From Candidatus Limnocylindrales bacterium (GTDB lineage: Bacteria; Desulfobacterota; Binatia; UBA1149; CAITLU01): a DNA stretch of 64,000 nt. The notes under the pieces were generated by a model. The model did not search any database, had not been told where the DNA came from, and saw only the letters and a list, made by a program, of their open reading frames with translations. The stretch spans positions 248,001 to 312,000 of the forward strand of contig DATNBU010000011.1 of NCBI GenBank assembly GCA_035571835.1. Reading direction: 5' to 3'. Positions 9,361 through 22,776 of the stretch are shown here, piece by piece (position 1 is the first letter of the stretch; each line of letters begins with the position of its first letter). The position numbers and the translations under genes are program-made.

Positions 9361-9448
9361 AAAACGGGACCAGGTACATTTAAAAAACTGTCGTGATTTC
9401 AACAGCCGCGTTTTTTCACGCGAAAATTAAATGTACCTGTCCCCATTT
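9361..9448. repeat. GGGGACAG intergenic repeat, word B inverted pair
   Basis: A left arm (CCAGGTACATTTAAA at about 9370) and a right arm (TTAAATGTACCTGTCCCC at about 9428) are inverted around a 40-base AT-rich loop. It lies between the divergent amine oxidase and methyltransferase genes, so here it is upstream of both rather than at gene ends. Confidence 0.8.
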
Positions 9449-9511: not shown

Positions 9512-10423
9512 ATGACGACTGCATCTACCGCCTCATCAGGGTCCGCCGGAGCCTCGCCGATCTGCAATCTGTGCGGCTCGGCCGACATCGCGACCTATCA
9601 CGACCAGGGCTGGCGCCGCGTGGTCGAGTGCCGCCGCTGCGGTCTCGTGTTCGTCGATCCGATGCCGACGTTCGAGCAGAAGGCCGAAATCGAGCGGCTC
9701 GCGTACGAGGGCGAACTTCTGCCGGAAGTCTCCGACTTCTTCCGCAACTGCCACCGCGACTTCCAGGACGATCCCGTCATCGAGTCGTTCCGCACCGGGC
9801 TGCGGTCGATCGGCTCGATCCGCACGCCCGGCCGCCTGCTCGACGTCGGCCCTGGCACCGGCATCTTCCTTTATCTGGCGAGCAAGGAATTCGGCTGGCA
9901 GCCGAGCGGCGTCGACATCTGCAACGAGAGCGCGGTCAAGGCGAAAGAAGAGTTCGACATCGACCTCGAGGTCGGCGACTTCAACACGTATCCGTGGCCG
10001 GCGGCGAGCTTCGATGCGATCACGATGCTCGACGTGCTCGAGCACACGACCGATCCACTCGGCTCGCTTCGCCGCGCGTACGAGTTGCTCGAGCCCGGCG
10101 GCGCGCTTTACGTCGTCGTGCCGAACCAGCACTGCCTGCTGACGGTGATCCTCGATCGCTGGATCCAGATGGGCGGCCCGATGCACACCTACTTCCTCGA
10201 GCGGCTCTACGTGTCGCCGCACGAATACTACTTCTTCCCGCGAACGCTGCGCGCGTTCCTCGAAAAAGCCGGCTTCGAAGTAACCGACATGCGAACCGGC
10301 AACGTCTATCTCGGCCGCTACCGCCTGCCGCTGTGGATGCGCATCCCGATGGAGATCGTGCTGCAGACCGGAAACCTCTTCGGCATGGGCGCCAAAATCA
10401 TGGCACTGGCCCGCAAGCCGTAA
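9512..10423 (+). CDS. class I SAM-dependent methyltransferase with zinc-ribbon N-terminus
   Basis: A 303-residue protein. Cysteines C18, C21, C40 and C43 (CNLC and CRRC) form a zinc ribbon, followed by a Rossmann methyltransferase with LLDVGPGTGIF (109-119), the DAITMLDVLEH acidic loop and a post-motif EPGGALYVVVPN. This layout is common in Methyltransf_23-type enzymes acting on sugars or small molecules in polysaccharide and secondary-metabolite pathways. A hydrophobic amphipathic C-terminus follows. It stands alone between two GGGGACAG repeats, so context gives no substrate. Confidence 0.87.
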   Translation: MTTASTASSGSAGASPICNLCGSADIATYHDQGWRRVVECRRCGLVFVDPMPTFEQKAEIERLAYEGELLPEVSDFFRNCHRDFQDDPVIESFRTGLRSIGSIRTPGRLLDVGPGTGIFLYLASKEFGWQPSGVDICNESAVKAKEEFDIDLEVGDFNTYPWPAASFDAITMLDVLEHTTDPLGSLRRAYELLEPGGALYVVVPNQHCLLTVILDRWIQMGGPMHTYFLERLYVSPHEYYFFPRTLRAFLEKAGFEVTDMRTGNVYLGRYRLPLWMRIPMEIVLQTGNLFGMGAKIMALARKP

Positions 10424-10450
10424 AAAGGGGACAGGTACATTTAAAATTCC
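10422..10450. repeat. GGGGACAG intergenic repeat, word B (single arm)
   Basis: AAAAAGGGGACAGGTACATT and following TAAA start at the stop codon of the methyltransferase gene and fill the gap to the convergent lipoate ligase-like gene at 10457. Confidence 0.8.
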
Positions 10451-10456
10451 GCTGCA

Positions 10457-11146
10457 TTATCGCAGGTCGGTGATCTCGCTGCGGGCCTGCTCGAGCGCGC
10501 GCGCGAACGCTTCGCGGTCGAGCCCGCCGATTGCTGCGAGAAACTCTCGATGCGGCCGCCCGCGCCGCCAGTCGGGCTCGCGAACGGGATGTCGCAGCAC
10601 GGCCGAGATCATCTCGAGGTCGGGCTCGACCAGCAGCGTTCCGTGCAGCAGCGTCGCATCGCGATGACGGCGCAGCGCGAGCCCGCCGACCTTGCGATCG
10701 GCGATGCGCAGATCGCCCGATGCATCGCTGTCGACCGCTTCGCGCACTCCCGCCTCGCCGAGCGCGCGCACGACGGCCGCGTTGCACGTGCTCCGCACGC
10801 TGCCGAGCGACGGCGGCTCTTTTCCAGCGTCGTGCGCGACGACGAACGCGTACTGCACCGTGCCCGGCCCGATCACCACCGTTCCGCCACCGCTCGCACG
10901 CCGCACGATCGCGACGCTGCGCCGCGCGCACTCCTGCTCCTCGACCTCGATCGAAACGATGCGGCTGACCCCGAGCACGACCGCGCTCTGGTTGCAGGTC
11001 CACACCCGCACACCTGGTCGCGCGCGTTCGAGCATCGCGAAATCGCCTTCGATCCCGTGCACGACTCCGGAAGCCGCACCGAAGAGAACTTCGACCGGCG
11101 TGCGGCGCGGGATTCTCGCCGCCGTGCTCAGACCTTGTCCTTCCAC
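10457..11146 (-). CDS. lipoate-protein ligase A family protein
   Basis: A 229-residue member of the biotin/lipoyl protein ligase fold. It shows the family signature RRASGGGTV (82-90), the lysine of IADRKVGG (Lys152) that contacts lipoyl-AMP, and the HGTLLVEPDL strand. It should attach lipoate or a related acyl group (octanoate) to carrier domains. It is at the short end of the family and lacks a C-terminal accessory domain. Its ATG lies 19 bases inside the end of the upstream repressor gene, so the two are probably co-transcribed, linking lipoylation to fatty-acid control. Confidence 0.8.
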   Translation of the reverse strand: MEGQGLSTAARIPRRTPVEVLFGAASGVVHGIEGDFAMLERARPGVRVWTCNQSAVVLGVSRIVSIEVEEQECARRSVAIVRRASGGGTVVIGPGTVQYAFVVAHDAGKEPPSLGSVRSTCNAAVVRALGEAGVREAVDSDASGDLRIADRKVGGLALRRHRDATLLHGTLLVEPDLEMISAVLRHPVREPDWRRGRPHREFLAAIGGLDREAFARALEQARSEITDLR

Positions 11147-11793
11147 TGCGTCGCCCCGAGGAAGATCACGCGCAGCTGCAGCACGAAGTTCTGCGTCAGC
11201 TCTTCCTCGACCTGCGGCTGGTCGGGAGGAAGATCGATGAAATCGCTCGCGGCGTTGAGCATCGTGTTGACGACGAGGCCGCAGACCATCTGCAGCGTTC
11301 GCATCGAAAGGCTGGGAAGAAGGCTGAGCTCGCGGAGATCCTGCGCCATTTCGGTGGCGAAGTGCTGCGTCTCGTAGCGGATCGAACGCCGGATCAGCGG
11401 CGAGCCGCCCCAGCGCTCGCTCGCCATGAACAGGATGTGCAGCCGGTGCTCGCGCACGAACTGCCGGTAGATGCGCACCGAATGATCGATGATGCGGATC
11501 GGCGGCACGCCGGCGCGCCGCGCATCGCGAAGAAGCCGTCGCAGCGTCAGGCCGGTTTCCTCGACGAGTGCGAGGCCGAGCTCGTCGAGATCGGCGAAGT
11601 GGCGGTAGAACGACGTCGGCACCACGCCGGCCTCGCGCGTGATCTCACGAAGCCCGAGGCTGGTGTAGCTGCGGCCGCTGCTCATCAGCCGAAGCGCGGC
11701 GTCCATGAGCATGCCGCGTGTGCGCTGCTTCTGTGCGGCGCGCGAGCCGGTTCCGTCGGGTGCGCGGCCCGGCACGGCGTCGCGGACGGGCAC
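11128..11793 (-). CDS. TetR-family repressor, FabR/DesT-like
   Basis: A 221-residue regulator. Its N-terminal segment AQKQRT, SLGLREITREAGVVPTSF and YRHFADLDELGLALVEETG closely follows E. coli FabR and Pseudomonas DesT, which repress unsaturated fatty acid genes by sensing acyl-CoA or acyl-ACP composition. The GTG at 11793 is chosen: it has a GGAAGGGAGAA purine stretch upstream and gives family-typical length. A longer frame to 11958 would place an operator-like site inside coding sequence. It is divergent from the ferredoxin reductase and desaturase genes, matching the DesT-desaturase arrangement, and probably controls them and itself. Confidence 0.87.
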   Translation of the reverse strand: MPVRDAVPGRAPDGTGSRAAQKQRTRGMLMDAALRLMSSGRSYTSLGLREITREAGVVPTSFYRHFADLDELGLALVEETGLTLRRLLRDARRAGVPPIRIIDHSVRIYRQFVREHRLHILFMASERWGGSPLIRRSIRYETQHFATEMAQDLRELSLLPSLSMRTLQMVCGLVVNTMLNAASDFIDLPPDQPQVEEELTQNFVLQLRVIFLGATQWKDKV

Positions 11794-11897
11794 GTGTGCG
11801 CGCGCTTCTCCCTTCCGGCTCTTCGCGTCTTCCCGGCCGATTCCGGTCGTGTCGGCGAGCGCGGAACGGTCCGGAGAGTGCCGGGACCTTCGTTTTC

Positions 11898-11915
11898 GAT
11901 GTACGAGTGTAGTCA
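11898..11915. promoter_or_regulatory. FabR/DesT-like box 1
   Basis: GATGTACGAGTGTAGTCA, the weakest of three sites with the TGTAC-n-GTGT core, lies on the repressor side of the intergenic region and could serve autoregulation. Confidence 0.4.
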
Positions 11916-11975
11916 CGTCAGTGGGGCGAAAAGAGCAGCATTTCCGAGCCATAGCCAACCGTGTCTGTGCTTTTC

Positions 11976-11993
11976 AGTGTACAGGTGTTGACA
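11976..11993. promoter_or_regulatory. FabR/DesT-like box 2, overlapping a -35 element
   Basis: AGTGTACAGGTGTTGACA has the form AGT-nn-ACA-nn-TGT-nn-ACA. From memory this resembles the 18-bp imperfect palindromes bound by FabR and DesT. A consensus -35 hexamer TTGACA (11988-11993) lies inside it and reads toward the reductase gene. Confidence 0.55.
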
Positions 11994-12007
11994 GAAACCA
12001 TCGGTTC

Positions 12008-12025
12008 GGTACACAAGTGTTCACC
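12008..12025. promoter_or_regulatory. FabR/DesT-like box 3, overlapping the -10 region
   Basis: GGTACACAAGTGTTCACC is a GGT-nn-ACA-nn-TGT-nn-ACC palindrome that ends one base before the reductase ATG at 12027. A TACACA hexamer (12010-12015) lies 16 bases after TTGACA, so transcription would begin at about 12020-12023 and the message would be nearly leaderless. A repressor here would cover the promoter and the start codon. Confidence 0.55.
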
Positions 12026-12026
12026 C

Positions 12027-13253
12027 ATGACGACTTCAGCGAATCCCGAACCGCCGCGGACCGACGGCCAGCCTCCAAGGCCGAGCGCAAGCCCGACCGG
12101 TCCCTCCGCAAGCCCGACCGGCCGCTCCGCAAGCTCGACCGGCCGCTCCGCAAGCCTGACCCGTCGTTCCGCAAGCCCGAACGGCCGTTCCAGCTGGACC
12201 CGCATTCTGTCCAGCCCGTGGCTGAGCCCGCTCAACGATACGGCCGCCATCGACGACCTGCTCGGGCTCGTCGATCCGACCTGGTCGGTCGCCGCCGTAC
12301 GCGCGCGCGTCGTTTCGGTGAATCGCGAGACCGACGATGCATCAACGCTCGTGCTGCGGCCGAACCGGCTGTGGCTTGGCCATGTGGCCGGACAGCACGT
12401 GCAGCTCACGGTCGAGACCGGAGGGCGGCGTCACGTGCGCACGTTCAGCATCTCGTCGCCGCCGCGTGCCGACGGCCTCGTCCACGTGACCGTCAAGCGC
12501 CGCGCCGGCGGCAAGGTTTCCAGCTGGCTCGCTGACAGCGCCGCGGCCGGTGACGTCGTCACGCTCAGCAACCCCGCCGGCGACTTCGTGCTGCCGCCGG
12601 TGTTGCCGCCGCGCATCGTCCTCGTCTCGGCCGGTAGCGGCATCACGCCGGTGATGGCGCTGCTGCGAACCATCGTCGAGGCCGGGGGACCGACGGATGT
12701 CCTGTTCGTGCACACGTCGCGCTCGCGCCGCGACGTCATTTTCGCGCACGAGCTCGAGACGATCGCGCGAACGCATCCCCGCATCGAGATCCGCCTGCAC
12801 CTGACCGAAGAGAGCGGCCGTCTCGACGCCGCGCAGATCTCAAGCATTGCCGCCGAAGCCGCCGGCGCGCCGGCGTTCGTCTGCGGCCCGGAATCCTTCA
12901 TGACGAGCGTGCGCTCGGCGTGGGGCAGCGCCGGCAACGCGGAGCATCTGCGCTTCGAATGGTTCGGTGCGCCCGCGCGCGAGAACATCGGAGGCGAAGC
13001 GCAGAGCATCAGCGCCGAACATTCCGGCACGCGCTTTACCGCGCTCGCCGGCCAGTCACTTCTCGTTGCAGCAGAAAACGCGGGTCTGCGGCCGCTTTAT
13101 GGATGCCGCATCGGTGTCTGCCACACGTGCAAGTGCCACAAAATCTCCGGCGTCACCGAAGACCTTCGCGACGGGCGAATTTCCGATGAGCCGGGCGAGA
13201 TGATCCAGCTCTGCATCTCGACCGCACGCTCCGACGTCTCGATCGAAATCTGA
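12027..13253 (+). CDS. ferredoxin reductase-ferredoxin fusion for the desaturase (DesC-like)
   Basis: A 408-residue electron-transfer protein. Residues 1-55 are low complexity, with SASPTGR-type heptads. An FAD domain with RTFSISS (138-144) and an NAD(P) domain with SAGSGITPVM (201-210) follow. The C-terminal plant-type [2Fe-2S] domain binds the cluster through C360, C365, C368 and C396. It would take electrons from NAD(P)H through FAD to the iron-sulfur centre and on to the diiron desaturase 26 bases downstream, as DesC does for DesB. The ATG at 12027 has no ribosome site, in keeping with a near-leaderless message. Confidence 0.9.
   Translation: MTTSANPEPPRTDGQPPRPSASPTGPSASPTGRSASSTGRSASLTRRSASPNGRSSWTRILSSPWLSPLNDTAAIDDLLGLVDPTWSVAAVRARVVSVNRETDDASTLVLRPNRLWLGHVAGQHVQLTVETGGRRHVRTFSISSPPRADGLVHVTVKRRAGGKVSSWLADSAAAGDVVTLSNPAGDFVLPPVLPPRIVLVSAGSGITPVMALLRTIVEAGGPTDVLFVHTSRSRRDVIFAHELETIARTHPRIEIRLHLTEESGRLDAAQISSIAAEAAGAPAFVCGPESFMTSVRSAWGSAGNAEHLRFEWFGAPARENIGGEAQSISAEHSGTRFTALAGQSLLVAAENAGLRPLYGCRIGVCHTCKCHKISGVTEDLRDGRISDEPGEMIQLCISTARSDVSIEI
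12083..12187 (+). repeat. five tandem 21-bp repeats coding SASPTGR heptads
   Basis: Five 21-base units (starting 12083, 12104, 12125, 12146, 12167) with core CTCCGCAAGCCCGACCGGCC sit in phase in the reductase gene and encode a heptapeptide repeat, S-A-S-P-T-G-R with variants. The length keeps the frame, so copy number can vary without breaking the gene. Confidence 0.85.
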
Positions 13254-13279
13254 AACCCAGCGGACCTCGAGGAATCACG

Positions 13280-14383
13280 ATGAAATCTCCTGCCAGCAAT
13301 CTTACCCGCGAACAGATCGACGCGATCGCCATCGAGCTCGACGGCATCCGCGACGAAATCCTCGGCGACCTCGGCGAGCGCGACGCCGCGCACATCCGCC
13401 GGGTCGTGCGCCTTGCGCGTGCCAGCTCGATTGCCGGCCGCTCGATGCTCGCGTTCGGTTTCACTCCGGTAAGCTTCGGTGCAGGCGTTGCGCTGCTGTC
13501 GCTCGGCAAGATCCTCGAGAACATGGAGATCGGCCACAACGTCATGCACGGTCAGTACGACTGGATGAACGATCCGTCTCTCGATTCGAAAACCTACGAG
13601 TGGGACAACGTCTGCGATTCGTCGCAGTGGCGCCACTACCACAACTATGAGCACCACACGTTTACGAACGTGCTCGGAAAGGATCGCGACGTCGGCTACG
13701 GGATCATCCGCGTCAGTGAGGATCAGTACTGGCACCCGAAGCACCTCATGCAGCCGGTCAGCAACGTGCTGCTGTCGCTGCTGTTCCAGTGGGGCGTCGG
13801 AATCCACGACATGGATCCGATGCGCGTGATGCTCGGTTCGAAAGACGACGAGGAATCGAGGGCCGCGCGCGCCGAGTTTCCGGCCAAATGGCGGCAGTTC
13901 CTGCGCAAGGCCGGACGTCAGCTTTTCAAGGACTACGTGCTGTTTCCGCTGCTGACGCCGTGGAACGCGCCGCGCGTGCTGCTCGGCAACCTTTCCGCCA
14001 ACGTCATCCGCAACGTCTGGACCAACGTGATCATCTTCTGCGGGCATTTCCCCGAAGGCACGCGCGTCTACACGCAGGAAGAGACGGCGACCGAGTCGCG
14101 CGGCGACTGGTACGTTCGCCAGATGCAGGGCTCGGCCAACATCGAAGGCAGCTCGTGGTTCCATGTGATGACCGGCCACCTGTCGCACCAGATCGAGCAC
14201 CATCTTTTTCCGGACCTCCCTGCGCATCGGTACCCGGAAATTGCCGGACGCGTGCGCGACCTTTGCGAGCGAAACGGGCTTCCGTACAACACCGGGAGCT
14301 TCGCCGAACAGTACGGAAGCGTGCTTTCACGGATCTTCCGGTTCGCGTTGCCGACGCGTGCCACGCAGGCGCAGACGGCGTAA
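13280..14383 (+). CDS. membrane fatty acyl desaturase (DesB-like)
   Basis: A 367-residue integral-membrane diiron desaturase. The three histidine boxes are complete: H86-x3-H90, H121-x3-HH (125-126) and HQIEHH (303-308). It introduces a cis double bond, probably delta-9, into acyl-CoA or phospholipid acyl chains using O2 and electrons from the adjacent reductase. It is preceded by a weak GAGGA site 26 bases after the reductase stop, so the two form one operon under the FabR/DesT-like repressor. The pair would adjust membrane fluidity. Confidence 0.92.
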   Translation: MKSPASNLTREQIDAIAIELDGIRDEILGDLGERDAAHIRRVVRLARASSIAGRSMLAFGFTPVSFGAGVALLSLGKILENMEIGHNVMHGQYDWMNDPSLDSKTYEWDNVCDSSQWRHYHNYEHHTFTNVLGKDRDVGYGIIRVSEDQYWHPKHLMQPVSNVLLSLLFQWGVGIHDMDPMRVMLGSKDDEESRAARAEFPAKWRQFLRKAGRQLFKDYVLFPLLTPWNAPRVLLGNLSANVIRNVWTNVIIFCGHFPEGTRVYTQEETATESRGDWYVRQMQGSANIEGSSWFHVMTGHLSHQIEHHLFPDLPAHRYPEIAGRVRDLCERNGLPYNTGSFAEQYGSVLSRIFRFALPTRATQAQTA

Positions 14384-22753: not shown

Positions 22754-22776
22754 AAAAATGTACCTGTCCCCTTTTT
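22754..22776. repeat. GGGGACAG intergenic repeat, word B (inverted single arm)
   Basis: AAAATGTACCTGTCCCC followed by TTTTT ends directly at the thiC stop codon (22777), between the convergent SDR and thiC genes. On the minus strand it reads GGGGACAGGTACATTTT. Confidence 0.8.

Follow-up and report, generated by a model that had tools for sequence, protein, structure and literature searches.

In Pseudomonas aeruginosa, the TetR-family repressor DesT (PA4890) is encoded divergently from a reductase-desaturase operon, as summarized in PMC4273635, and its DNA binding is described as responding in opposite directions to saturated and unsaturated acyl-CoA (PMC10634369). The related FabR is reported to recognize a motif that begins with AGC and ends with GCT (PMC4273635), with the core ACAnnTGTnnnnT (ACAnnTGT; PMC4804515). 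In mycobacteria, MadR is presented as a TetR repressor of the desaturase genes desA1/desA2 that is released by saturated acyl-CoA (PMC8872791).

Here we describe a locus in a 64,000-nt stretch of genome G000 (the window), in which a FabR/DesT-like TetR gene faces a reductase-desaturase gene pair with three 18-bp sites between them. As in P. aeruginosa, the repressor gene is divergent from the operon, and the arrangement is very probably a local, probably autoregulated DesT-type switch of a desC-desB-like operon.

Results

Genes of the locus

The locus comprises the following genes and a tandem repeat:

10457–11146, minus strand: lipoate/octanoate ligase-like gene, accessory (Pfam LplA-B_cat)
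11128–11916, minus strand: TetR-family repressor, DesT/FabR type (NF008402, best PDB match, start from relatives)
12027–13253, plus strand: DesC-like NAD(P)H/FAD/2Fe-2S reductase (Pfam FAD_binding_6, NAD_binding_1, Fer2)
12086–12191, plus strand: tandem repeat, 21 bp × 5.0, within an extra N-terminal (or leader) tract of the reductase frame
13280–14383, plus strand: DesB-like membrane fatty acid desaturase (Pfam FA_desaturase, 89.4 bits)

The kinship of the repressor to FabR and DesT, claimed in an earlier note on this DNA, is confirmed: the scanned frame 11128–11793 scores 161.4 bits against the NCBIfam FabR model NF008402 (cut-off 151), and the best PDB match is DesT (3lsj, E 4.6e-40). The start at 11793 given in that note had to be replaced. 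Because the repressors of three close relatives begin with MATxVHRK (MATSVHPK in G030) at the position matching GTG 11916, this GTG is most likely the start codon; the predicted N-terminus then consists of the tail MTTLVHRK, a variable linker and the HTH domain. With the start at 11916, the first of the three sites, O1, overlaps the repressor's own start codon, which the first account lacked, and the true intergenic gap shrinks to 11917–12026.

The facing reductase-desaturase pair is borne out by the Pfam domains, and its order, divergent from the repressor, is that of DesT-desCB. A divergent reductase within 700 nt followed by a desaturase on the same strand is found in 64 of 80 named loci, which are the best 80 of at least 560 confirmed FabR/DesT-like loci. 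The translation of the desaturase contains three His boxes (HNVMH, HNYEHH and HQIEHH) and is 75–78% identical to those of three close relatives. Comparison of window positions 11128–14383 with L002, L003, L004, L151, L164 and L169 gives a graded identity to close relatives, highest for the regulator core (85–88%), lower for the desaturase and lowest for the reductase that it controls (54–58%).

The lipoate-ligase-like gene, which overlaps the end of the repressor gene by 19 bases, is an accessory neighbour. Its proposed operon link to the repressor holds in two of the four close genomes, both of one genus (the relative that adjoins the repressor in L004, of the same genus as the window, is 59.5% identical), and fails in L002 and L003, which gave no match. 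None of the best 80 of at least 560 named loci has such a gene adjoining the regulator within the fetched flanks; weak matches lie ~3 kb off in two of them. The window also contains three exact copies of the word GGGGACAGGTACAT, at 9431–9444 (minus strand), 10427–10440 (plus strand, just past the end of the frame 9512–10423) and 22758–22771 (minus strand), and an extra copy with two mismatches at 9366, which makes four against 0.18 expected; the word looks like a dispersed repeat.

Palindromic sites between the divergent genes

The sites and the promoter element are located as follows:

11898–11915: O1, weak candidate operator over the repressor start codon (6.2 bits; GATGTACGAGTGTAGTCA)
11976–11993: O2, strong predicted operator holding the -35 hexamer (22.8 bits; AGTGTACAGGTGTTGACA)
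11988–11993, plus strand: TTGACA, predicted -35 of the reductase-desaturase promoter (position conserved in 27/27 loci)
12008–12025: O3, strong predicted operator at a distance of 32 nt from O2, probably covering the -10/start-site region (17.2 bits; GGTACACAAGTGTTCACC)

Three sites of the form TGTAC-n-GTGT had been reported at 11898, 11976 and 12008. The positions stand, but the form needs amending: O3 reads GTACAC-AA-GTGT, which is no literal fit to it but fits the DesT/FabR palindrome. The initial pattern with three mismatches was unspecific, as it hit 225 times and its reversed control 281 times. With RGTNNACRNNTGTNNAC and at most one mismatch, the window contains five matches against 1.31 expected (five were reached by one of 100 shuffles), and four of them are O2 and O3, each read on both strands. 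Exact matches to RGTNNACRNNTGTNNAC are almost confined to this locus in the whole genome G000: three of four lie here, in two sites, the fourth is on contig C43, and the reversed control gives none. Across eight genomes, 14 of 18 exact matches are at the regulator locus; the reversed control gives 11, none of them in G000.

Two matrices were used for scoring, the first built from the sites of four close genomes and the second from 60 sites of the named loci, none from the window (consensus AGTGAACACGTGTTCACT). The 60-site matrix, the source of the scores given above, is not fully independent, its sites having been chosen with the first; by it O2, O3 and O1 rank 1, 2 and 4 across the 64-kb window.

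Conservation of the sites and their spacing

Regulators 85–88% identical to that of the window over the matched part occur in three genomes: G006 (same family), G001 (same genus) and G030 (another family of the class). O2 and O3 are kept in all four close genomes, 31 nt apart in these three and 32 nt apart in the window. Of 148 genomes of the class, four contain the composite O2+O3 pattern; this is a count of the pattern and not of all two-box loci, as the pattern demands TGTTNAC in the downstream box and misses G109, G112 and G113, which the matrix finds. The four are exactly those with a regulator at least 85% identical, and the reversed control gives none.

A regulator at E 1e-25 or better is found in 11 of the 148 class genomes. 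G019, G038, G109, G112 and G113 each have a divergent reductase and a site of at least 21 bits; in the last three, two boxes lie 41 nt apart. No reductase match was found in the fetched stretch of G003 or G004, whose best sites begin with AGC (AGCGAACAGTTGTGCACT, 18.4 bits, and AGCGTACATATGTACGCT, 8.7 bits). The latter, at a regulator without a reductase match beside it (L008), is a perfect FabR-type palindrome and suggests that a true FabR may also occur in the class.

A search for the boxes upstream of desaturase genes in relatives, which the earlier note had proposed, succeeded beyond the four close genomes as well. With the first matrix, a site of at least 12 bits is present in 67 of 69 loci, that is, in 62 of 64 named loci and in five of the class, four of which had supplied that matrix; L071 and L101 lack one. 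Operons of reductase and desaturase genes preceded by the motif occur in Gammaproteobacteria, in Actinomycetota and in one Myxococcota. The boxes are 39–43 nt apart in Pseudomonas, in Alcanivorax and its relatives, and in Moraxellaceae, Oleiphilus, Salinisphaera and Minicystis, as well as in G109, G112 and G113 of the class; the 31–32 nt spacing is a compact variant of this layout. A spacing of 20–21 nt is found in 11 loci, ten of Marinobacter and one of Vreelandella (L058, L061, L063–L066, L068, L076, L078, L080 and L088). The paired operators of these 11 loci nearly touch, and the Marinobacter loci have a third 92–96 nt off, which is another layout of the same switch.

Predicted promoter elements within O2 and O3

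TTGAC(A/T) ends the upstream box in all 27 loci with boxes 26–49 nt apart and none of their downstream boxes, which is good evidence for the proposal that TTGACA in O2 serves as a built-in -35 element. Such a role would not be universal, since TTGAC is missing from the upstream box in the 11 loci with boxes 20–21 nt apart.

A -10 element inside O3 is weakly supported. In several loci of the 39–43 nt layout a hexamer resembling a -10 immediately precedes the second box (TAAAAA in L060, L069 and L079, TATATT in L050, and weaker forms in the Pseudomonas loci), which would place the transcript start under that box. At a spacing of 31–32 nt the -10 would have to fall inside O3. The candidates there are poor, and their distance from TTGACA differs among the four genomes: TACACA with a spacer of 16 in the window, TACACG with 15 in G006, TACACA with 15 in G001 and TACAGG with 17 in G030. 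The window's TACACA matches TATAAT at three of six positions, and a sigma-70 promoter scan returned no site at threshold. Thus, the claim that the third box covers the -10 region and stops one base before the ATG is exact in its geometry and weak in its -10 part.

The start of the reductase gene

O3 is followed by a single C and then by the ATG at 12027. From this abutment the earlier note had derived a near-leaderless desaturase transcript on which one protein, bound over the -10, could block the start of both transcription and translation. The window geometry is exactly as this reading would have it, no in-frame ATG, GTG or TTG occurs between 12027 and 12318, and an additional in-frame ATG 4 nt past O3 makes a start near the box possible in G006. 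However, the three relatives with the same boxes have reductase starts 19 nt (G006), 17 nt (G030) and 21 nt (G001) after O3, each behind a Shine-Dalgarno sequence (GGAG or GAGG), so the near-leaderless look is not common to their main starts and looks peculiar to G000.

The ATG at 12027 is itself uncertain, given an odd codon-position composition and a repeat array. In BLAST comparisons with the three close relatives the reductase alignment begins at residue 60, with the first 59 residues unaligned; composition by codon position is 0.54/0.88/0.75 over the first 59 codons and 0.68/0.53/0.83 downstream. The corresponding tract is short in L002, L003 and L004. The 21-bp, five-copy repeat of this tract is absent from the three relatives, and its unit equals seven codons, so copy changes preserve the frame. 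Furthermore, TetR-family proteins act by binding DNA and not mRNA, so translation would not be blocked directly. We reject the translation block on this ground and on that of the relatives' starts 17–21 nt after O3, and we regard the near-leaderless reading as a whole as improbable.

O1 as a candidate autoregulatory operator

O1 lies 78 nt from O2; its score of 6.2 bits compares with an average of -9.0 for shuffled sequence (p 0.01, the lowest value possible with 100 shuffles). A counterpart lies 77–78 nt from O2 in all four close genomes, with scores of 5.7–6.5 bits, far below those of O2 and O3. O1 sits on the first codons of the repressor, which read ATG GCT ACA nnn GTn CAT C(G/C)A AAG in the relatives and GTG ACT ACA CTC GTA CAT CGA AAA in the window. 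Part of its conservation is therefore coding, and O1 might be no operator at all if the N-terminal codons of MATxVHRK and a preference for A/T-rich codons after the start accounted for the rest. The low scores agree with this alternative, as do the fact that O1 encodes the repressor start in all four genomes and the position of the conserved A/T third base of codon 7 just outside the 18-mer.

Codon usage argues against coding conservation alone. All four genomes have the same codon 3 (ACA) and the same codon 6 (CAT), and codons 2 and 7 share an A/T third base, whereas none of 200 core codons is both invariant across the four and A/T-ending. The repressor core has a GC3 of 0.86 and uses ACA for 1 of 49 Thr codons and CAT for 3 of 22 His codons, so the DNA itself seems to be conserved at O1. 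A regulator-side third site also recurs (p<0.05) in 31 of 69 loci against ~3.5 expected, 64–109 nt from the upstream main box, though related loci do not count as independent cases (Marinobacter supplies 11 of the 31, the window's class 8). Among the 23 named loci of this set, 13 have the third site upstream of all in-frame regulator starts, nine have a possible start within it, and one (L087) has it inside the regulator frame. Coding conservation alone was thus set aside as the main reading and is kept as a rival with an appreciable, though clearly smaller, chance of being right. O1 is likelier to be a weak autoregulatory operator, and its position over the repressor's own start codon suggests autoregulation.

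FabR or DesT

The repressor passes the NCBIfam FabR equivalog cut-off, as a true FabR with fabA and fabB as main targets and the desaturase as a secondary one would, but the model does not separate FabR from DesT. In G000 (98.4% complete), fabA (TIGR01749) has no match at E 0.001, which is consistent with a regulator dedicated to the desaturase. A fabA-like match of 170.7 bits, short of the cut-off of 238.15, is nevertheless present in G006, which carries the same switch, and G038 also has fabA-like matches that fall short of it. O2 and O3 begin with AGT and GGT and lack the AGC...GCT form of FabR-type operators, position 3 of the site being T where the FabR motif has C, and three of the four motif matches in the genome lie at this locus.

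In a tree of 91 regulators, which is midpoint-rooted only, the window's regulator shares a clade with those of its three kin (100/100), inside a 12-row group (100/99) that also contains Arenimonas, Nevskia and Limnobacter sequences; this places it among desaturase-linked regulators and away from the rest of the class. The regulators of G003 and G004 fall together with genes of Marinobacter, Tamilnaduibacter and Arsukibacterium that lack a neighbouring reductase match; the branch of this group, like that of Pseudomonas, is long. The lack of a fabA match, the T at position 3, the concentration of matches at the locus and the tree placement led us to reject FabR proper, which we consider very improbable. 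The locus has instead the parts of DesT-desCB: a TetR regulator of the DesT/FabR subfamily, a divergent FAD/NAD/2Fe-2S reductase followed by a membrane desaturase, and, between the divergent genes, palindromes of the AGTGnACAnnTGTnCACT type, a motif derived from the loci compared here. Its patchy presence, together with the placement in the tree, suggests that the switch may have been acquired by horizontal transfer from Pseudomonadota.

Discussion

We infer a scheme in which a repressor dimer would bind O2 and O3, the two strong palindromes of the divergent promoter, possibly in a cooperative manner. The two sites would lie on the same helix face about three turns apart, O2 over the -35 and O3 over the presumed -10/start region, so that RNA polymerase would be excluded and the desC-desB promoter shut. 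By analogy with DesT (PMC10634369), saturated acyl-CoA would release the repressor and unsaturated acyl-CoA would tighten its grip, placing DNA binding under the control of the acyl-CoA pool. The weaker palindrome O1, at the repressor's start, would let the repressor damp its own synthesis.

A more specific, tentative version, which we think rather unlikely, is a compacted three-operator DesT switch. Here O2 and O3 would have moved about one helical turn closer (31–32 vs 39–43 nt), so that the downstream operator would have come to cover the -10 in place of the transcript start; the regulator would have an operator on its own start codon, and repeat expansion at the start of desC would have left a nearly leaderless transcript. 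If so, promoter, operator and start codon would be fused in G000.

For G000, the DesT-type reading gives a TetR gene and its operon a confident function. The recurrence of the sites indicates that one DesT-like operator code spans Gammaproteobacteria, Actinomycetota, one Myxococcota and the window's class. The paired boxes come in at least three spacing layouts (20–21, 31–32 and 39–43 nt), a natural series for how operator position sets repression strength, and the regulator-side sites suggest that the switch repeatedly includes a weak third site.

Among known systems, FabR of Enterobacterales and Shewanella shares its family model with the window's repressor. As given in PMC4273635, fabR and desA of Shewanella are divergently oriented, with the site beginning at the predicted start of the transcript; the FabR site described there is AGCGTACACGTGTTCGCT, compared with the AGTGnACAnnTGTTnAC type here, and FabR targets fabA and fabB. 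MadR is set apart by its description rather than by sequence: it serves different desaturases, and its authors call its ligand logic unlike that of DesT/FabR (PMC8872791). Our literature search met no operator map of a DesT promoter, which we do not take to mean that none is in print, and the closest comparison is with eight Pseudomonas loci (P. aeruginosa not among them). Each of these has a pair of palindromes 41–42 nt apart (31–32 nt here), the upstream one containing TTGACT; a ninth, L071, has no site of at least 12 bits. DesT is reported to bind the fabAB promoter as well (PMC10634369), whereas no fabA was found in G000, and the N-terminal tail of the window's repressor is longer than that of DesT. 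A DesT-type, fatty-acid-sensing switch of membrane fluidity is thus of a well-known kind; what sets G000 apart is how its sites are spaced and how abruptly the gene begins.
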